Assembly (NCBI GenBank): GCA_001942415.1
Contig: MKJX01000011.1
Coordinates: 1 to 64,000, forward strand
Source of the DNA: Pseudonocardia sp. CNS-139
GTDB lineage: Bacteria; Actinomycetota; Actinomycetes; Mycobacteriales; Pseudonocardiaceae
Direction of reading: 5' to 3'
Length of the DNA: 64,000 nt
The position numbers and the translations under genes are program-made. This document shows, piece by piece, positions 6,846-55,696 of the stretch. Each line of letters opens with the position of its first letter. Position 1 is the first letter of the stretch. The notes below the pieces were generated by a model, which worked only from the letters and a program-made list of their open reading frames with translations, was not told where the DNA came from and ran no database searches.

Positions 6846-7536
6846 ATGAGTACTGAGATGCGTAGCGGTGGGTCGGCGAAGCCTCTGAACGACGGCGAGC
6901 CCGCCCAACTCACGCGCAGGCGGCGGACCACATACGAGACCTGATCGTGCGTCGCGAGTTGCTGCCCGGCGAGAAGATCGGGCAGGTCGACCTGGCGAGA
7001 AGAGTCGGGGTTTCGCGGAGCCCGTTGCGCGAGGCCCTTCGCACGCTCGAGTCCGAGGGAATCGTCACGTACGAGAACAACCGGGGCTACGTCGTGGCCC
7101 GGCTCGATGCGGACGACTTGGCACAGGTGTACCGCCTGCGGGAGATCATCGAGGCCGAGTTGCTCCGCAGCATCCAGCGGCCGACCGCCGGGCAACTGGC
7201 CGAGTTGGACGCGCTCAACGCCGAGATGGTGGCTGCCATGGCGCCGGCGACGTCACGAAGCTGCTCAGGAGCAACCGGGGGTTCCACTTCGCGATCTTCG
7301 ATCTCTCCCCGCTGAGTCTCTTCCGGCGTGAGGTGCAGCGCCTCTGGCATCTCTCCGAGGGCTACCGGGCGACCTATCTGTGGTTGCCCGAGACGCGGCG
7401 ACGGATCGTCGACGAGCACGCCGCGATCATCGCGGCACTGCGCGTCTTCGATCTGGACGCGGTGGTCCGGCTCTGCGCCGAGCACCGTTCCGCGAGCGAG
7501 GAGGTGGTGATCGGACTGCTTGCCGCGCCGCACTGA
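6846..7536 (+). CDS. GntR-family regulator, FCD type (paralogue 2, two frame breaks)
   Basis: About 230 residues after repair. The first 25 residues read from ATG 6846 behind GGAAGGGGG. The frame then shifts near 6925 into AADHIRDLIVRRELLPGEK, the winged helix and the first FCD helices, and again near 7250 into FHFAIFDLSPL and WHLSEGYRATYLWLPETRRR. Both breaks fit a lost base. By eye it matches paralogue 3 (38802) at most positions. It is divergent from the CMD-aldolase operon with an operator-like element between, so control of that operon and of itself is likely. Confidence 0.82.
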
Positions 7537-45849: not shown

Positions 45850-46189
45850 CGACCGTGGCGCTGGTCGGGTGCCGGCGTCATGAGCGGTGCCGGCTGCGCC
45901 GGGTCGCCGTGATCGGCCGGCGCCCCATGTCCGGTGCCGCCAGGGATCAGGGACGGTTCTGAGCCTGCTCCGGGGCGGGCGTACGCGCAGCCGGCGGTAC
46001 GCGTGCGTGGCCCGACGTCGGCTTCCGCATCGATCGCCCTGAGCGGGGCGGTCCTTGCTCGTCACGCCGGCCGGATGGCCGGCATGTGTGGCGCGCGTCA
46101 CATACACCTGGGCGGCCGATACCCATCTCGCTACCGTCTTAGGTGCAACTTGTATCTAAGTAGTAGCTATCAGGCTGGGGAGGGTGACG
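45850..46189. other. Intergenic region before the glycolate operon
   Basis: No gene. It carries a 23-bp palindrome (46138-46160) 29 bases before the glcD start. The rest is GC-rich without clear signals. Confidence 0.5.
46138..46160. promoter_or_regulatory. Palindromic operator of the glycolate operon
   Basis: CTTAGGTGCAA-C-TTGTATCTAAG is a 23-bp dyad in which 9 of 11 positions per arm are symmetric. Its AG-N3-CAACTTGT-N2-CT core recurs before the nitrilase. It is well placed to control glcD transcription. Confidence 0.6.
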
Positions 46190-47641
46190 GTGGATCTTGC
46201 GCGACTCCGCGACGAGTTGGTCGACGCTCTCGGTACGGACGGTGTGATCGATGACCCCATGAGGCTGCGGACGTACGAGTGTGACGGGCTGACGGGCTAC
46301 CGAGTCGTTCCCGCGCTCGTGCTGCTGCCTCGATCGGCGGTCGAGGTGGCGGTGGCGGTTCGGGCCTGTGCTCGCGCCGGTGTCCCGTTCGTCGCGCGCG
46401 GCGCCGGCACCGGACTGTCGGGCGGTGCCCTCCCGGTGGCCGGTGGAGTCGTCATCTCCTTGCAGCGGCTGCGTTCGATCACGGACATCGATCCGGTCAA
46501 TCGCCGGGCCACCGTCGAGCCGGGAGTCACCAACCTCGACATCACCAGGGCGGCGGCCGGGCACGGCTTGTATTTCGCTCCGGATCCCTCGAGCCAGCTC
46601 GTCTGTACCGTCGGCGGGAACGTGGCGGAGAACTCCGGCGGCGCGCACTGCCTGAAGTACGGTTTCACGGTCCACCACATCCACTCGATCGACGTCGTGC
46701 TTCCCGACGGGAGTGCCACGACCCTTGGCGGAGACTCGAATCTCGCGGCGGGATACGACCTGTTGGGGGCCTTCATAGGGTCCGAAGGCACACTGGGCAT
46801 CGTCACATCGATCACGGTGAATCTTCTGCCGTGCCCCGCCGCGGTTCAGACGCTGGTCGCCGACTTCGACTCGGTGGAGCAGGCCGGTGACACGGTGACC
46901 GCGATCATCGCGGCAGGAATCGTGCCGGCCGCGGTCGAGATGATGGACGCGCTGGCGGTCGAGGCGGTGGAGGCGGCGGTCGCCGCAGGTTACAACCGAG
47001 ATGCCGCGGCGACACTCATCGTCGAGCTCGACGGTCCGGCCGACGACGTGGCCTCCGACCTTGCCGAGGTCGAACAGCTCTGCCGGCGACACAGCAGCAT
47101 CGCGGTGCGGGTGGCCGGCTCCGCCGCCGAGCGGGCCACGGTCTGGAAGGGACGCAAGGCGGCATTCGCGGCGATGGGCCGGATCAGCCCGAGCTACTTC
47201 GTTCAGGACGGAGTTGTGCCCCGCACCCGGCTCGCCGAAGCATTGGCGCGCATCGGCGCGCTCGCGGACGAGGCGGGACTGCGGGTGGCAAACGTCTTCC
47301 ACGCCGGGGACGGCAACCTGCACCCGCTGGTGCTCTACAGCGATGCGCGTGGTGAGCACGACACCGCCGAGCAACTCTCAACCGCGATCGCCGAGTTGTG
47401 TGTCGAACTCGGCGGATCGCTTTCCGGCGAGCACGGTATCGGCACGGACAAGGTGTGCTCGATGCCGCGCCAGTTCACGGACGACGATCTCGCAACCATG
47501 AGCCGGCTGCGTCGCGCATTCGACCCGCGAGGGCTGTGCAATCCGGGAAAACTGCTTCCGACCCCGCGGCTCTGTGGGGAACGCCCCGGGCCGCACCGGC
47601 CGCACCCGCTCGAGACAGCGGGCCTGATCGAACGGATGTGA
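46190..47641 (+). CDS. glcD: Glycolate oxidase FAD subunit GlcD
   Basis: 483 residues, intact. The FAD-linked subunit oxidises glycolate to glyoxylate. The PCMH-type FAD domain shows VARGAGTGLSGGALPVAGGV near residue 70, FAPDPSSQLVCTVGGNVAEN near 130 and GSEGTLGIVTSITVNLLP near 195; the C-terminus has NVFHAGDGNLHPLVL and GSLSGEHGIGTDKV with the active-site His residues. GTG 46190 is preferred since GGGGAGG lies six bases upstream; GTG 46184 is too close. It leads the glcDEF-hyi-glxR-gcl operon and overlaps glcE by 4 bases. Confidence 0.93.
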   Translation: MDLARLRDELVDALGTDGVIDDPMRLRTYECDGLTGYRVVPALVLLPRSAVEVAVAVRACARAGVPFVARGAGTGLSGGALPVAGGVVISLQRLRSITDIDPVNRRATVEPGVTNLDITRAAAGHGLYFAPDPSSQLVCTVGGNVAENSGGAHCLKYGFTVHHIHSIDVVLPDGSATTLGGDSNLAAGYDLLGAFIGSEGTLGIVTSITVNLLPCPAAVQTLVADFDSVEQAGDTVTAIIAAGIVPAAVEMMDALAVEAVEAAVAAGYNRDAAATLIVELDGPADDVASDLAEVEQLCRRHSSIAVRVAGSAAERATVWKGRKAAFAAMGRISPSYFVQDGVVPRTRLAEALARIGALADEAGLRVANVFHAGDGNLHPLVLYSDARGEHDTAEQLSTAIAELCVELGGSLSGEHGIGTDKVCSMPRQFTDDDLATMSRLRRAFDPRGLCNPGKLLPTPRLCGERPGPHRPHPLETAGLIERM

Positions 47642-48914
47642 CGGTCACGGTGATCCCCATCGAACTGGGCGCCTGCCCACAGAAGCAGGACGCGCTGGCG
47701 GTCCTGCGCCCCACCACCACCCGAGAGCTGCGAGACGCGCTCCTCGACACGACCACCAGCCATCCCAGGGTGGGCATCCGGGGGGCCGGCACCGCGGACG
47801 GATGGGCGGGCTGGCCGGTTGCGACCGACGCCACGGTGGACACCCGCGCGTTGAGCGGAGTGATCCACTACAACCCCGCCGACATGACGGTCGCCGTGCG
47901 GGCGGGAACCGAGTTGGTCGCGTTGCAGAACGAGGTGGGCCGGCACGGTCAGCGGCTGGCGTTCGACCCCGCACGAGGGTTCCACGGCGCGACCGTCGGC
48001 GGGCTGCTGGCGACGGCCGATGGCGGCCCCACGCGACAGTCCCACGGAACCCTGCGCGACCTGGTCATCGGCGTGACGGTCGTCCTCGCGGACGGGACGG
48101 TCGCACGTTCCGGTGGGCACGTCATCAAGAACGTCGCCGGCTACGACCTGGGAAAACTCTTCTGCGGTTCCTTCGGCACGCTCGGAGCCGTCTCCGAGGT
48201 CGTGCTCCGGCTGCATCCGACGCCGCGGACGTCGGCCACCGTGGCCATCGACGTTCCCCTGCACGAGGCATACGAGATCGGACACGCGCTCGGCGCCGCC
48301 GGCCTGGATCCCGCGGCGGTCGAGCTGGCCCACGGCGCGAGTGGTACCGCCGCGGCAGGTCGGTGCGGGGAGGGAACCGGGCGGCTGCTGGTCCGGTTCG
48401 ACGGCACCCCGCGCGGGGTCGCCGAGCGCGTCGGCGCCGTGGCCGGCCTCACGGTGCGACAGGTGGACCGCCTCGACGACGACCAGGCCGGGCAGGCGTG
48501 GGGGGCCGTGGCCGGACTCGTCGGCGAACGCGGAGACACGGTGTTGCGTGTCGGTTCTCTGCCTTCCGAGGGAATGCGGCTGGTGGAGTCGATCGCATCC
48601 GCCGCGCGGAGCCACGGCGTTCGGGTCGGCGGAACGAGCACGCTGATGGCCGGGGTCCACACGCTGCGCCTGTCCGAGGGACCGCCGCGCGCCCACGACG
48701 CGGTACTGCGCGCCGTGCACGATGCGGTCGGCTCGGCGTGCACCGTCCTGCGCCGCGACGGGCTCGATCCGGCCACGCCCGTCTGGGGCGCACCGCCCCC
48801 GGCGGCGGCTCTGATGCGGGCGATCAAGACGAGATTCGACCCGGGTGACCGTTTCGGCACCAGCGCCTGGCGCCATGGCTCGACCCGACCGTGGCACGGG
48901 AGGTGCCGGCATGA
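47638..48914 (+). CDS. glcE: Glycolate oxidase subunit GlcE (one frame break near the C-terminus)
   Basis: The second, shorter FAD-binding subunit, about 425 residues. GVIHYNPADMTVAVRAGTEL, FHGATVGGLLATADGGPTRQ and SGGHVIKNVAGYDLGKLFCG followed by GSFGTLGAVSEVVLRLHPTP identify it. GTG 47638 overlaps the glcD stop (GTGA). Near 48870 a lost base changes the frame; the normal ending PWLDPTVAREVPA then runs to TGA 48912-48914, overlapping glcF by 4 bases exactly as the other operon junctions do. Confidence 0.9.
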
Positions 48915-50242
48915 CCGACACGGTGACCCCGGCCGCCGGTACCGGGTCGTTCGACGAGCACCGTCCACCCGATCGGGAACTTCTGGACGACTGCGTGCAC
49001 TGCGGATTCTGTCTGCCGACCTGCCCCACCTACCAGGTGACCGGCGAGGAGATGGAATCGCCGCGCGGGCGCATCTACCTGATGGATCTCGCGACGCGCG
49101 GAGAGATTCCGCTCGACGAGGCATTCGGCGGGCACATGGACTCCTGTCTGGGCTGCCTGGCCTGCGTCAGCCACTGCCCATCGGGAGTCCGTTACGACAA
49201 GCTGATCGAAGCCGTCCGACCGCAGGTCGAGCGGCAGATCCCGCGTGCGACACCGGACGGGCTGTTCCGCCGACTCATCTTCTCCTTGTTCCCGTACTCG
49301 AACCGGCTCCGGCTGGCCGCTGTCGGCGGCCTCCTGTACCGGCGGCTGGGCGTCCGGGCCGTCTTGCACGTCCTGGGCATCATCGATCTGCTTCCTCCGC
49401 GGCTGCGGGCCCTGGAAGCGCTCCTGCCACCGGTCACGCTCCGCAGCCTGCTTCGCCGCAGCGCCCCGTTCACCGCGGCGGTCGGCCCGCCGCGGCTGCG
49501 CGTGGGTCTCATGCCCGGCTGCGCACAGCGGGTCTTCTTCGGCGATGTCAACGCCGCCACGGTGAGGGTCCTGGCTGCGGAGGGATGCGACGTCTACGTG
49601 CCGCAGGACCGGCGGTGCTGCGGTGCGCTCTCAACGCACGCAGGGCAGGAGGAGGACGGGATCGCGCATGCTCGCGCGACGATCGAGATGTTCGAACGTC
49701 ACGAGCTCGACGTGATCGTCGCCAACGTCGCGGGGTGTGGTTCCGCGCAGAAGCAGTTCGGTGACCTGCTCGGTGACGACCCCGACTTCGCCGGGCGGGC
49801 CGCAGCGTTCTCGGCGAAGGTCAAGGATGTCAACGAGCTGCTCGCGGAGATGCCGAGGCGGGCTCCGCGCCATCCGATCCCGATCACCGTCGCCTACCAC
49901 GACGCCTGCCACCTGGCCAACGCCCAGGGCATTCGGGCGCAGCCGCGCGAGGTGCTGCGTGGCATCCCGGGCCTGAAGATCTCCGAGATTGCCGAGGCGG
50001 AAATGTGCTGCGGGTCGGCCGGCATCTACAATCTCGTGCAACCGGAAAAGGCCGAGGAACTCGGCCGGCGCAAGGCTGACCACCTCACGGCGGTCCGGCC
50101 CGACGTGGTGGCCACTGCGAATGCGGGCTGCCTGCTGCAGATCCGCCGTTTCCTCGACGCCGGCATTCCCGTTGTCCATCCCATCCAACTCGTCGATGCC
50201 TCCATCCGCGGCGCCGACCTGCTCGAGGGAGCCGACGCATGA
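48911..50242 (+). CDS. glcF: Glycolate oxidase iron-sulfur subunit GlcF
   Basis: 443 residues, intact, ATG after GGGAGGT. It passes electrons from the flavin subunits toward the membrane quinone pool. Two [4Fe-4S] motifs are CVHCGFCLPTCPTY near residue 30 and CLGCLACVSHCPSG near 80. Two CCG-type domains follow (QDRRCCGALSTHAG; EAEMCCGSAGIYN), the second with YHDACHLANAQGIRAQPR. Length and architecture match GlcF. ATGA overlap with hyi. Confidence 0.93.
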   Translation: MTDTVTPAAGTGSFDEHRPPDRELLDDCVHCGFCLPTCPTYQVTGEEMESPRGRIYLMDLATRGEIPLDEAFGGHMDSCLGCLACVSHCPSGVRYDKLIEAVRPQVERQIPRATPDGLFRRLIFSLFPYSNRLRLAAVGGLLYRRLGVRAVLHVLGIIDLLPPRLRALEALLPPVTLRSLLRRSAPFTAAVGPPRLRVGLMPGCAQRVFFGDVNAATVRVLAAEGCDVYVPQDRRCCGALSTHAGQEEDGIAHARATIEMFERHELDVIVANVAGCGSAQKQFGDLLGDDPDFAGRAAAFSAKVKDVNELLAEMPRRAPRHPIPITVAYHDACHLANAQGIRAQPREVLRGIPGLKISEIAEAEMCCGSAGIYNLVQPEKAEELGRRKADHLTAVRPDVVATANAGCLLQIRRFLDAGIPVVHPIQLVDASIRGADLLEGADA

Positions 50243-51069
50243 CCCTCAGATTCGTCGTGAACTGCTCGATCCTGTTCACCGAGCGGCCGATCCTGGAACG
50301 GCCGGCGGCTGCGCGAGCGGCCGGCTTCGACGCCGTCGAGTTCTGGTGGCCCTTCCCCCGGGCCGTTCCCTCCGATCGCGAGATCGACACGTTCGAGCGC
50401 GCCGTCCGGGAGGCGGGGGTGGACCTGATCGGTCTCAACTTCTTCGCCGGAGACATGGCAGCCGGCGATCGCGGCATCCTGTCCTGGCCCGGGCGAGCGA
50501 CCGAGTTCCGGGACAACGTCGATGTCGCCGTCGGGCTCGGGGAACGGCTGCACATTCGGGTGTTCAACGCCCTGTACGGCAACCGGATCAGCGCGGCCGA
50601 TGCGCAGGCCCAGGACGAGCTGGCCGCGGAGAACCTCGGCGCGGCAGCCGCTGCGGCTGCCCGCATCGGCGCGACGGTGCTGGTCGAGGCGGTGAGCGGA
50701 GCCGACCGTTACCCCTTGCGCACCTCGGCGGACGTGGGTGCGCTCCTCGCCCACCTCGACCACCTCGGTGTCGCCGACGTCGGGTTTCTCGCCGACCTCT
50801 ACCACCTCGCCGTGAACGGTGACGACGTGGACGACGCCATCAGAACCCACCGGCAGCGCATCGCCCACGTCCAGATCGCCGACTCGCCCGGCCGCGGCGA
50901 ACCCGGCAGCGGCGAGCTTCCGCTTCAACGCTGGCTCGACGATCTCGACCATGGGGACTACCAGGGCTTCGTCGGTCTCGAGTACGTGCAGACCACCCCC
51001 GAGCCGTTCGGCTGGCTCGCGCGCAACAGCCGGTGGTCACGGGAACCGACCTCCAGGAGCGATGCATGA
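50239..51069 (+). CDS. hyi: Hydroxypyruvate isomerase
   Basis: 276 residues, intact. It interconverts hydroxypyruvate and tartronate semialdehyde in the glyoxylate-to-glycerate route. It opens LRFVVNCSILFTERPILERP and AARAAGFDAVEFWWPF, typical of this TIM barrel. Metal-ligand acids lie in VLVEAVSGADRYPL near 155, FLADLYHLAVNGDD near 185, HVQIADSPGRGEPGSGEL near 215 and FVGLEYVQTT near 245. Overlaps with glcF and glxR of 4 bases each show tight co-expression. Confidence 0.92.
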   Translation: MTLRFVVNCSILFTERPILERPAAARAAGFDAVEFWWPFPRAVPSDREIDTFERAVREAGVDLIGLNFFAGDMAAGDRGILSWPGRATEFRDNVDVAVGLGERLHIRVFNALYGNRISAADAQAQDELAAENLGAAAAAAARIGATVLVEAVSGADRYPLRTSADVGALLAHLDHLGVADVGFLADLYHLAVNGDDVDDAIRTHRQRIAHVQIADSPGRGEPGSGELPLQRWLDDLDHGDYQGFVGLEYVQTTPEPFGWLARNSRWSREPTSRSDA

Positions 51070-51973
51070 CCACGATCGGATTCATCGGACTCGGCATCAT
51101 GGGCGCCCCCATGGCAGCCAACCTCGTCGACGCCGGGTTCGACGTCGTCGGCTACAACCGGAGCCCCGACAAGGTCGACGCCCTCGTCGCCCACGGCGGG
51201 CGCGGCGCGGGGAGCGTGGCCGAGGCGGCCAAGGGAAGCGACGTCGTGGTCACGATGCTGCCCGACGCGCCGGACGTTCTCGAGGTGGTCACCGGCCGGG
51301 ACGGCGTGCTGGCCCACTCGCACCCCGGCCAGCTCCTCATCGACATGAGCACGATCGGCCCTGAGGCCTCGTGCGCGATCGCCGAGGCGGCCTCGCGGTT
51401 CGACGTCCGGGTCCTCGACGCACCGGTCAGCGGCGGTGAGGCAGGTGCCGTCGAGGGCCGGCTGTCGATCATGGTCGGCGGCGCGACCGTGGACTTCGAG
51501 GCCGCCCGGCACGTCTTCGTGGCCATGGGCACGACGATCGTCCACGTCGGCCCGCACGGCGCAGGGCAGACGGTCAAGGCGGCCAACCAGCTGATCGTGG
51601 CGGGAAACATCCAACTGCTCGCCGAGGCGATCGTCTTTCTCGAGCCTCCGGCGTGGACATCGGTGCCTCCCTCCTCGTCCTGGCGGGAGGTCTCGCCGGC
51701 AGCACGGTCATGGATCGCAAGGCCGAGAACATGGTCAACCGGGACTTCACCCCCGGCTTCCGGACTGCGCTGCACCACAAGGACCTGGGGATCGTCATGA
51801 GCGCCGCCCGCGAGGCCGGCGTCGTCCTCCCGCTCGGATCCGCGGTCACACAGCTCGTGTCCGCACTCGTGGCCCGGGGTGACGGGCACCTCGACCATTC
51901 GGGTCTGTACAAGCTCACGTCCGAACTCTCCCGCGGACTGCCGGCCGTTTCTGGCAGCAGCCACGGTCATTGA
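51066..51973 (+). CDS. glxR: 2-hydroxy-3-oxopropionate (tartronate semialdehyde) reductase (one frame break)
   Basis: About 302 residues. It reduces tartronate semialdehyde to glycerate. TTIGFIGLGIMGAPMAANLV is the Rossmann motif at the N-terminus; VLDAPVSGGEAGAVEGRLSI near 120 binds substrate; the catalytic Lys is in GAGQTVKAANQLIVAGNIQL near 170. A lost base near 51645 shifts the frame; the remainder reads VLAGGLAGSTVMDRKAENMV, DFTPGFRTALHHKDLGIVMS and DHSGLYKLTSEL. ATG 51066 overlaps the hyi stop. Confidence 0.9.
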
Positions 51974-51997: not shown

Positions 51998-53780
51998 ATG
52001 GCGCGCATGACTGCCGCCGACGCAGCCGTCGCGGTGCTACGCAGAGAAGGCATCACGGATCTCTTCGGCTTACCCGGTGCTGCCATCAACCCGTTCTATG
52101 CGGCGGTCCGCCGCGACGGGCACCTGAGCCATACTCTGGCCCGCCATGTCGAAGGCGCGTCACACATGGCCGAAGGTTATACACGGGCCGCCCCGGGGAG
52201 GATCGGGGTCTGCGTGGGCACCTCGGGGCCCGCCGGGACGGACATGATCACGGGCCTGTACTCGGCCTCGGCCGACTCGATCCCGATCCTGGCCATCACG
52301 GGGCAGGCGCCGGTCGCCAGGCTCCACAAGGAGGACTTCCAGGCCGTTGACATCGCCGCGATCGCGGCGCGGTCACCAAATGGTCGGTCACCGTCATGGA
52401 GCCGGCCCAGGTTCCCGGCACGTTGCAGAAGGCGTTCTGGCTGATGCGAGCGGGCGACCCGGACCGGTACTGGTGGACCTTCCGCTGGACGTCCAGCTCG
52501 CGGAGATCGAGTTCGACCCGGAGTGCTACGAACCGCTGCCGGTCATGAATCCCGCAGCCACTCGAGCTCAGGCCGAGAAGGCGCTCGACCTGTTGGGCCG
52601 GGCGCAACGTCCGGTGATCGTCGCCGGCGGCGGCATCGTCAACGCCGACGCGGCGGATCTGCTGGTCGAGTTCGCCGAGCTGACCGGGATCCCGGTGGTC
52701 CCGACCCTGATGGGCTGGGGTGTCATCCCCGACGACCACCGGCTGATGGCGGGGATGGCGGGACTGCAGACCGCACACCGCAGTGGCAACGCGACACTGC
52801 TCGCCTCGGACCTCGTGATCGGTATCGGCAACCGGTGGGCCAACCGGCACACCGGCAACCTCGAGGTCTACCGCGACGGTCGGACGTTCATCCACATCGA
52901 CATCGAGCCGACGCAGATCGGCCGGGTCTTCGCGCCCGACTTCGGAATCGTGTCCGACGCCGCGCAGGCGTTGGCGAGGATGATCGAGGTCGGCCGAGAA
53001 CGGGCGGCGACCCGCCTGCTGCCCGATCGTTCGGCCTGGGCGGCGGAGTGCGTCGCGCGCCGCACCACCCTGGAGCGCCGCACGCACTTCGACCACATCC
53101 CGATCAAGCCGCAGCGGGTTTTCGAGGAGATGAACCGTGCATTCGGGCCCGAAACGCGCTACGTGTCCGCGATCGGGCTGTCCCAGATCGCCGCGGCGCA
53201 GTTCCTCCACGTCTACCGGCCCCGCCATTGGATCAACTGTGGCCAAGCCGGGCCGCTCGGGTGGACGGTGCCCGCGGCACTCGGAGTCTGCGTGGCTGAT
53301 CCCGACGCCACGGTCGTCGCCGTCACCGGTGACTACGACCTGCAGTTCATGATCGAGGAACTGGCGGTCGGGGCGCAGTTCAACCTGCCCTACATCCACG
53401 TGCTCCTGAACAACTCCTATCTGGGGCTGATACGGCAGGCGCAGCGCGCGTTCGACATGGACTACTGCGTGCAGCTCGGCTTCGACAACATCAACTCGCC
53501 GGAGACCGACGGTTACGGTGTGGATCACGTCAAGGTCGCCGAGGGACTGGGCTGCAAGGCGCTCCGGGTGCGCACCCCCGATGCGCTGCCCCAGGCCTTC
53601 GAGGACGCCAAGAAGCTCGCGGCGGAGTTCCGCGTGCCGGTGATCGTCGAAGTCATGACCGAGCGGGTCACGAACATCGCCATGAGTGGTACGGACATCG
53701 GGAACGTCGTCGAGTTCGAGGAGCTCGCCCTGACCGCCGAGGACGCGCCGACCGCCGTCTCGTTCGCCGCTGCCGACTGA
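51998..53780 (+). CDS. gcl: Glyoxylate carboligase (tartronate-semialdehyde synthase; two frame breaks)
   Basis: A ThDP and FAD enzyme of about 594 residues joining two glyoxylates to tartronate semialdehyde and CO2. [20 protein letters not shown] and [16 protein letters not shown] are diagnostic: Val stands where other ThDP enzymes have the catalytic Glu. [57 protein letters not shown] and [20 protein letters not shown] follow. Two lost bases near 52370 and 52460 interrupt the segment [20 protein letters not shown] and [16 protein letters not shown]. Confidence 0.93.
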
Positions 53781-53817
53781 CGGGCGTTCGCCCCGCCAGG
53801 TACCCGAGAGGAATGAC

Positions 53818-54285
53818 ATGACCAGTCCGGTTTCCGGCGACACGGCCCACATCCCTGACGCGGCCCACATCCCTGACGCGGCCCACATCCCGGGGGCGTC
53901 CACCGCTTCGCTCTACGAACGGCTCGGGGGTGCCTACGCCATTGCCACGGCGGCCGATCATCTCATCGACGCCCTGCACGCGAACGCGACGCTCAACCAG
54001 GCGAATGCCACGGTGAAGGACTTCCACGTCGAGCAGTACAAGGCGGGCTACAAGTTCATGGTCACCGCCTGGGCGATCGAGATGACCGGTGGACCGAAGT
54101 GCTATCCCGGTCGCGACATGGTGGCCTCGCACAGCCACCTGGGGCTCAGCGGGTACGAGTTCGACGTGACCGCACACGAGATTCGCAACACGCTCTACCG
54201 GCTGGGGGTCCCTCGCCGAGAAGTCGATGAGTTCATGGACATCATTGCCGCGCAGCGTGCCTCGATCGTCGTCGAGCCCGACTGA
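53818..54285 (+). CDS. Truncated hemoglobin, group 1 type, with N-terminal repeat
   Basis: 155 residues, intact, ATG after GAGAGGA, 37 bases after gcl. From residue 30 on, SLYERLGGAYAIATAADHLI, TVKDFHVEQYKAGYKFMVTA and GRDMVASHSHLGLSGYEFDV follow the 2-on-2 globin pattern, with the proximal His in ASHSHLGLS near 104. Preceding it is an Ala-rich leader containing three tandem copies of AHIPxA encoded by 18-bp DNA repeats. Globins of this size bind O2 or NO. Why one ends a glyoxylate operon is unclear: an oxygen or peroxide-linked role with glycolate oxidation is a guess. Confidence 0.83.
   Translation: MTSPVSGDTAHIPDAAHIPDAAHIPGASTASLYERLGGAYAIATAADHLIDALHANATLNQANATVKDFHVEQYKAGYKFMVTAWAIEMTGGPKCYPGRDMVASHSHLGLSGYEFDVTAHEIRNTLYRLGVPRREVDEFMDIIAAQRASIVVEPD
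53845..53898 (+). repeat. Three tandem 18-bp repeats inside the globin gene
   Basis: Two identical units GCCCACATCCCTGACGCG are followed by a third that differs in four positions near its end. They encode the peptide repeat AHIPDA-AHIPDA-AHIPGA at the N-terminus. Slippage could vary the copy number between strains. Confidence 0.85.
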
Positions 54286-54322
54286 TCTCCTGGTAAGGCG
54301 CCGTATCCGGGTCAGGGCGTGG

Positions 54323-55565
54323 TCAGCGGAGGAGGGGCGTCGGGCTGCCGGCCGGTGCCGGGGTGGCACGGCCGATGTCCCGAAATGGGACGGTGCCGTC
54401 GGCGAGCCGCTCGGGCTCGGGCACCGGTCCCGATCGGAGGACGCGCCGCGCGTGGGCGAACTCCTTGCCACGATCGATCGCGAGCACGGCGACAAGTCGC
54501 CCCTCCGGGTCCGAGCCAGGTCGCCGCGGGTGGACCGTCATCGTCGTACTCGCGCCAGATCAGCCTGTCGTCCGGGCCGTGGTGACCTGCGTACTGGCAG
54601 CGGTGCCCGAACTGGTCGCTCCAGAAGTACGGCACCGGGTCGTGCACGGGTAGGGGATCAGCGTCGTTCGCCAGCAGGACCTGGGCGGCGACGGCCGGCG
54701 CGGTGGCTGCCTCGTCCCAGTGCCCGAGGCAGAGCCGTTGCCGCCATCGTGGCGACCAGCGGTCGGCGACGTCACCGACCGCGAGGACGCCGGGGACCGA
54801 GGAACGCAGGTGCTCGTCGACCACCACCCCGCGATGAACCTGGACTCCGCTGCCCACCAGCCATTCCACGTTCGGACGAGCACCGATCCCGGTCACGACG
54901 ACGTCCGCCGGGATCTCGGTCCCGTCCGAGAGCACCACGTTCCCGTGGACGACCTCCCGTACCATGGCGCCGAGGCGCAGGTCGACGTGCGTCCACCAGG
55001 GCATCAGGAGTCTGCGGGCCGCTTCGTCGCCCAACGCCTGTGCGCAGGGCGAGGTGCCGGCCTCCACACAGGTGACGTGTGCACCCCGGGCGAGGGCGGC
55101 GGTGGCCACTTCGGCGCCGATCCAGCTCGCGCCGATCAGCACGACACGGACTCCGGCGGCCAGGCGGGTACGCAGGACTCGGGCGTCGTCGAGAGTTCGC
55201 AGCGTCAGCTGGTGACCACTTCCCGGCACTCGCACCGGCCGGGCACCGGTGGCGATGACGAGTGCGTCGAACTCGATCTCCGTGCCCGTGGTGCGCAGCG
55301 TGCGACGGTCGGCGTCCAGCCCGACAGCTGCGTCACCGAGGCGGGTGTCGACGGCGAGCGCGTCGGCGTCGAACGGGACGGCAACGGGGTCGCCGCCCGT
55401 CAGTACCGCCTTCGACAGCGGTGGCCGGTCGTACGGGGCCGTCCGCTCGTCCGAGACCAGCGTGACGGGGCCGGCGAAACCGCGTCGGCGGACCTCCTCG
55501 CAGACCCGGACGGCGGCCAGACCGCCGCCCGCGACGACGAGGTGCGCGTTGCTCTCCACGGCCAT
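54323..55565 (-). CDS. FAD-dependent NAD(P)H-ferredoxin reductase (one frame break)
   Basis: About 414 residues, a rhodocoxin/putidaredoxin reductase-like flavoprotein. LVVAGGGLAAVRVCEEVRRR near residue 8 binds FAD, YDRPPLSKAVLTGGD near 45 is a subgroup signature, VLIGASWIGAEVATAALARG near 150 binds NAD(P)H, and VLAVGDVADRWSPR near 270 is the second FAD motif. The frame shifts near 54510 and ends GRLVAVLAIDRGKEFAHARR to a stop at 54323. It is the only reductase of this type in the window and could serve the ferredoxin/P450 pair or a ring-hydroxylating dioxygenase. ATG 55565. Confidence 0.88.
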
Positions 55566-55593
55566 GAGCAAACCAGCGACGGTCGCCACGGCC

Positions 55594-55612
55594 GTTGTCG
55601 CAAGCCGACAAC
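55594..55612. promoter_or_regulatory. Perfect palindrome in the reductase/acyl-CoA dehydrogenase divergent region
   Basis: GTTGTCG-CAAGC-CGACAAC is a perfect 7-5-7 dyad. The form TTGTC-N6-CGACA recurs at 61778-61795 before the PucR-type regulator and the dioxygenase genes, pointing to one regulator for both regions. Confidence 0.55.
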
Positions 55613-55696
55613 GCTGTCCGATCTGTTGTGGGCTCGGGCCATCCTCTCGGCGCCGCTTCCCCGACAAGGTGGCAGGCGGAAGCAAGGAGGCTTGGT

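Follow-up and report, generated by a model that had tools for sequence, protein, structure and literature searches.

The closest described systems are the group I (N) truncated hemoglobins, such as 1dly, Mycobacterium tuberculosis HbN (1idr) and the Tetrahymena protein 3aq5. The globin analyzed here shares with them the 2-on-2 fold (by model and Foldseek), the double-Gly motifs and the proximal His. In contrast to them, its subfamily lacks Tyr B10 and Gln E11, carries extra residues in the CD-E region, and shows an invariant His70, Gly77 and Trp85 and a near-invariant Cys95; the identity in fold matches is 22-32%. OhrR repressors (2pfb/2pex, 1z91) offer a second comparison: at six related globin loci, a neighboring gene encodes a protein of this type, whereas the globin under study has no such neighbor. 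The usual partner gene of ohrR is ohr; at these six loci, the globin gene is found next door instead. Heme is also tied to glycolate, by name, in GlcG, a family of heme-domain proteins called after the Escherichia coli glc locus, but its fold differs from that of a globin. Finally, a peroxidase-like activity on protein hydroperoxides is reported for YjbI of Bacillus subtilis, a truncated hemoglobin of group II that relies on a Tyr residue (Y63; PMC9536834, where OhrR appears in the reference list only). This peroxide-removing role resembles the one proposed below, although YjbI belongs to another group and is Tyr-dependent; Tyr78 of the globin analyzed here may or may not be its counterpart.

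The DNA stretch analyzed here, referred to as the window, comprises 64,000 nucleotides of Pseudonocardia sp. CNS-139 (assembly GCA_001942415.1, contig MKJX01000011.1, positions 1 to 64,000). The features relevant to the globin gene are as follows.

46184-50242, + strand: glcD, glcE-like gene and glcF, glycolate oxidase subunits (Pfam/NCBIfam; order as in the related genome G014)
50239-51069, + strand: hyi, hydroxypyruvate isomerase-like (TIGR03234, 244.5 bits, under the cut-off of 353)
51069-51973, + strand: glxR, 2-hydroxy-3-oxopropionate reductase, with a frameshift at about 51640-51670 (TIGR01505 in two frames)
51998-53780, + strand: gcl, glyoxylate carboligase, with a frameshift at about 52370-52450 (TIGR01504 in two frames)
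53781-53817, + strand: 37-base spacer from gcl to the globin gene, without the subfamily promoter motif (sequence and motif scan)
53806-53813, + strand: likely ribosome-binding site of the globin gene, GAGAGGAA, four bases before the ATG (read from the sequence)
53818-54285, + strand: truncated hemoglobin gene, ATG start, 155 amino acids plus stop (Pfam, PDB sequence matches, model)
53845-53898, + strand: 18-bp unit in three copies, coding for AHIPDA-AHIPDA-AHIPGA within the N-terminal tail (Tandem Repeats Finder, sequence)
53908-54282, + strand: globin domain with Ile50, Val82 and His105 (alignment)

The preliminary description had placed a group-1-type globin gene 37 bases past gcl, and this was confirmed (gcl stop codon at 53778-53780, globin ATG at 53818). 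The Pfam model Bac_globin (PF01152) matched the product just above its cut-off (24.4 bits vs. 21), and no NCBIfam model matched it. Its PDB sequence matches were group I truncated hemoglobins, with the Chlamydomonas eugametos hemoglobin 1dly on top (phmmer, E 3.8e-09). An AlphaFold model built from four input sequences was of modest quality (pLDDT 64.4, pTM 0.56), with low confidence for residues 1-27 and 58-76. When this model was used for a Foldseek search, truncated hemoglobins ranked first (best E 1.7e-05), in line with a 2-on-2 globin fold. We regard the product as a genuine truncated hemoglobin that is probably functional and belongs to a rare, mobile subfamily resembling group I. On the other side of the gene, a reductase-like gene (54312-55685, - strand), by eye of the FAD/NAD-dependent ferredoxin reductase type, converges on it and could be a candidate electron donor for the globin.

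The operon labels assigned earlier (glcD, glcF, hyi, glxR and gcl) agreed with the Pfam/NCBIfam profile matches. The frameshifts that split glxR and gcl in this assembly had gone unmentioned. In G014, gcl is intact (594-amino acid frame), and the order glcD-glcE-like-glcF-hyi-glxR-gcl is identical to that in the window, without a globin gene. A further frameshift was seen by eye at about 56290, in an acyl-CoA dehydrogenase-like gene downstream of the globin gene. Since the assembly consists of 250 contigs at 78.5% completeness and frameshifts continue downstream, those in glxR, gcl and the acyl-CoA dehydrogenase-like gene are probably assembly errors. The genome also harbors a second gcl (G000 contig C173:112761-114076; 72-76% identical), which is likewise in two pieces.

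A weak scan of the gap between gcl and the globin gene revealed no promoter- or terminator-like site. Given this and the short distance of 37 bases, co-transcription is plausible, and as judged from sequence the globin gene may well be co-transcribed with gcl. The same arrangement on one strand would suit a globin that is a working part of the glycolate operon, supplying O2 or shielding the flavin and ThDP enzymes from NO or peroxide arising in glycolate oxidation; the preliminary description had tentatively put forward an association of this kind. Conservation of the gene pair was analyzed from both sides. No gcl, glxR, hyi or glcDEF orthologue occurred at any of the 49 related globin loci; weak matches to glycolate/glyoxylate genes (29-36% identity) were present at three of them. 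Conversely, the globin gene was missing from all 29 gcl loci of relatives (27 from the same genus and two from the same order), though glxR adjoined gcl in 28 of them. The 49 loci exclude L170 and L173, which repeat a place, and include six that are shorter than 9 kb each (L027, L164, L165, L169, L168 and L005); at two gcl loci, little sequence follows gcl (about 100 bases in L056 and about 430 in L069).

Co-occurrence in whole genomes pointed in the same direction. Among five genomes whose globins are closest to this one, four lack a real Gcl (best identity 32-36%), and in the fifth, gcl lies on another contig. On plasmids of Rhodococcus pseudokoreensis and Mycobacterium dioxanotrophicus, gcl is followed by annotated pyruvate kinase or glycerate kinase genes, and no globin is among the listed gcl neighbors in what is an incomplete gene table. 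In the literature searched, no paper joined truncated hemoglobins (in this spelling) with glyoxylate carboligase or with Pseudonocardia. With 0/49 and 0/29 linked loci, the conserved linkage expected of a glyoxylate operon component is lacking. The partnership with gcl was thus rejected: in the loci examined, the globin does not belong to the conserved components of the glyoxylate pathway, and a helper function in glycolate oxidation appears quite improbable despite the tight spacing and the gap without terminator- or promoter-like sites. The G014 operon, complete without a globin gene, also argues against it.

Where the gene came from was addressed by sequence comparison. The globin is 62-74% identical to homologues from Pseudomonadota, the closest being those of Salinisphaera-like genomes, Paraburkholderia oxyphila, Ferrovum and a conjugative Roseovarius plasmid. 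Its identity to nine subfamily members found among 60 relatives of its own order is 45-57%. In a phylogenetic tree, it grouped with the P. oxyphila globin (support 86/93) within a set of eight rows that is otherwise from Pseudomonadota (support 86/97), and the globins of its own genus were placed elsewhere; these supports are below the starred level of the tool (95/80). Composition was uninformative as a sign of transfer: the globin gene does not stand out in third-position GC content (0.852, against 0.823-0.922 for the operon genes). Because the globin groups, with moderate support, with Pseudomonadota homologues and not with its own genus, lateral acquisition, most likely from Pseudomonadota, is likely; the moderate supports and the unremarkable GC content leave it short of proof.

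The distribution of the subfamily is patchy. In the family of Pseudonocardia sp. CNS-139, 30 of 390 genomes, its own included, contained a member at E 1e-20. A search of Pseudomonadota yielded 2/398 genomes, one of which was the centre genome and the other carried a match of merely 35% identity, and in the family of Paraburkholderia, the single hit among 398 genomes was the centre genome itself. The phylum search (31/396) used a profile that contained canonical rows, and this number is no subfamily count. Eight distant globin loci (L162-L169) are part of the 49 loci and lie outside the 42 rows of the subfamily alignment.

Several individual members deserve mention. The name of record L002, Endozoicomonas sp. 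G2_2, may be wrong: the record came up together with relatives of Salinisphaera japonica, and its globin falls into their group. In the S. japonica globin gene (L003, about 6974-7001), the start (MAEQTLYDR) seems to be in another frame than the core. The globin of an Azoarcus plasmid (L072, 5902-6369; 39% identical) has a signal-peptide-like N-terminus, which suggests a periplasmic cousin. A relative with 50% identity is encoded on a megaplasmid of the record Halomarina sp. PSR21, by name a haloarchaeon (NZ_CP119993.1, 875953-876330). Three genomes of a sister genus (G1301, G1312 and G1313) have two globin copies each.

We then compared the heme pocket in an alignment of the 42 subfamily rows and 12 outgroup rows, three of them canonical. 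Residues Ile50, Val82 and His105 of the globin occupy positions that we take to be B10, E11 and F8, respectively. The proximal His105 is conserved in 42/42 subfamily and 12/12 outgroup rows. At B10, Tyr was found in all three canonical rows and in none of the 41 subfamily rows with a letter in this column, which have Val (32), Ile (6), Gly (2) or Thr (1). At E11, the subfamily has Val (40) or Leu (2) and Gln in none of 42 rows, whereas all three canonical rows have Gln. The B10 pairing was confirmed by phmmer; that of E11 depends on the alignment, as phmmer puts the gap elsewhere, and its register is less sure. His70, Gly77, Phe80, Ala84 and Trp85 are invariant in the 42 rows, and Cys95 is present in 40 of them.

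This pocket bears on the view that the protein is simply an HbN-like globin that binds O2 or acts as an NO dioxygenase and has nothing to do with glyoxylate or peroxide. Such a function would fit the fold, the sequence similarity, which is highest to group I truncated hemoglobins, and the universal proximal His. However, NO detoxification in group N is tied to strong O2 stabilization by distal residues of the Tyr B10/Gln E11 type, as stated in PMC4720485, and in the alignment both residues are replaced throughout the subfamily. We consider a function of the HbN kind unlikely.

A different hint came from the gene neighborhoods. Clustering of neighbor genes showed that a MarR-family regulator of the OhrR type adjoins the globin gene in six of the 49 loci, in two phyla. 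All six regulators contain PF01047 (MarR) and a QLCF motif with an N-terminal Cys, the sensor residue of OhrR, and for both of the regulators searched against the PDB, the best match was one of the OhrR structures mentioned above. In L022, the stop codon of the regulator gene overlaps the globin start (ATGA), and on the Roseovarius plasmid, the regulator gene is located 42 bases upstream of the globin gene on the same strand. The two genes are divergent in L141 and tail to tail in L021, L028 and L142. When 829,615 bases were searched, seven OhrR matches were obtained, six of them within 1 kb of a globin gene (binomial P 4e-5); the 29 gcl loci gave no match, and neither did 10 loci with other globins. 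The query was derived from these same loci, and an outside query, the OhrR of the CNS-139 genome itself, gave the identical seven matches. The remaining 43 loci have no adjoining OhrR. Since four of the six loci are from the genus of strain CNS-139, they are not six independent events. Among the recurring neighbor clusters listed, only the OhrR-type cluster includes a locus from Pseudomonadota. Other candidates for a conserved partner, dipeptide ABC transporter genes and an enoyl-CoA hydratase gene in one genus, were set aside as possible synteny; the transporter genes precede the globin gene in L023, L024, L026 and L143, all of the same genus.

Many subfamily members also seem to have a promoter of their own. 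The motif TTGTGCRCNNTTGAC was detected with at most two mismatches within 220 bases upstream of the globin gene in 21 of 34 actinobacterial members, compared to a background rate of 0.1% in 1,856 sequence windows. In 20 genomes, the exact pattern occurred at 12 sites, 11 directly before a globin gene and one within a long frame of the opposite strand, and the reversed pattern did not occur. As these promoters served to define the pattern, the new information lies only in its absence elsewhere. The motif was found neither at the globin gene of the window, where the best upstream match has four mismatches and is at background level, nor at seven Pseudomonadota copies. By eye, it was not present before the ohrR genes, and a search for the regulator behind it found none. 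The preliminary description had named two observations that would speak against its view, independent transcription of the globin gene and a lack of conservation beside gcl. The second is what we observed; the first is indicated only in relatives, by the promoter-like motif. Judging from its promoters and regulator neighbors, the subfamily appears to serve in peroxide stress and to be regulated in its own right.

The N-terminal tail sets the globin apart from its relatives. Both earlier statements about it held up: it contains three AHIPxA units encoded by near-identical 18-bp repeats, and the stretch is foreign to usual truncated globins, as HIP is not encoded close to the start of the globin at any of the 49 homologous loci, whichever frame of the globin strand is read. 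Units 1 and 2 (53845-53862 and 53863-53880) are identical, and unit 3 (53881-53898) has three changes. Tandem Repeats Finder gave this array the highest score of 53 rows in the window (score 99, 2.9 copies, 97% matches). With up to three mismatches allowed, the 18-bp unit matched only its three array sites; in a shuffle control, the mean was 0.34 matches, and three matches were reached in 1 of 100 shuffles. Tail residues 1-27 are predicted to be disordered (pLDDT <50). In 41 of the 44 loci with a readable start, 4-9 residues precede the LYxRLGG motif; the other three have 14, 19 and 26 residues, the 19-residue tail (MKNSVPTDTAQKGEAASKT) being that of the Paraburkholderia globin. The CNS-139 tail has 31 residues and, after removal of two 18-bp units, also 19 (MTSPVSGDTAHIPGASTAS), with VxxDTA in register between the two. 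Because of this equal length and register, the tail itself seems to be of long standing in this branch, and the repeat of recent origin. The AHIPDA repeats look like a recent local in-frame duplication within a disordered tail; we found no sign of function for them, and they probably have no role of their own.

Such repeats could reflect relaxed selection on a recently acquired neutral passenger without present use. This would also account for the patchy distribution, the shifting neighbors, the restriction of the repeats to this copy and the lost or missing promoter motif. But the globin frame is unbroken although frameshifts are numerous in this assembly, and G77, F80, A84, W85 and H105, which are invariant in the other 41 rows, are all retained. 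We regard a mere passenger as rather unlikely.

Taken together, we favor, with a probability of roughly 0.42, a rare mobile globin that was acquired from Pseudomonadota, is read through from the glycolate operon and belongs to a subfamily whose job is peroxide protection. A subfamily gene would have moved from Pseudomonadota to the end of a conserved glycolate/glyoxylate operon. Behind gcl, it would have lost, or never had, the promoter typical of the subfamily and would now be expressed by read-through from the operon. Lacking Tyr B10 and Gln E11, which hold oxygen, the pocket may react with organic or other hydroperoxides in a peroxidase-like manner, and in several relatives, the adjoining OhrR-type repressor may switch the globin on. 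Among the roles proposed in the preliminary description, peroxide protection thus fits best, owing to the OhrR neighbors in other genomes and not to glyoxylate; the tie to glyoxylate did not stand. A more specific version can be offered only tentatively. It holds that the subfamily with the Tyr-free pocket is a dedicated hydroperoxide-responsive enzyme, with TTGTGCRCNNTTGAC as a near-private actinobacterial promoter/operator and with OhrR pairing in two phyla, and that the CNS-139 globin was rewired by lateral transfer from a peroxide to a carbon-source signal.

The locus illustrates that a single gene neighborhood is a poor basis for assigning a role in a pathway. It also draws attention to rare globins whose heme pocket is atypical, and whose own conserved promoter and peroxide-sensing neighbor suggest a testable function for some orphan truncated hemoglobins. 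If the favored reading is true, the window would be an example of a laterally moved globin put under the carbon-source signal of a glycolate operon.
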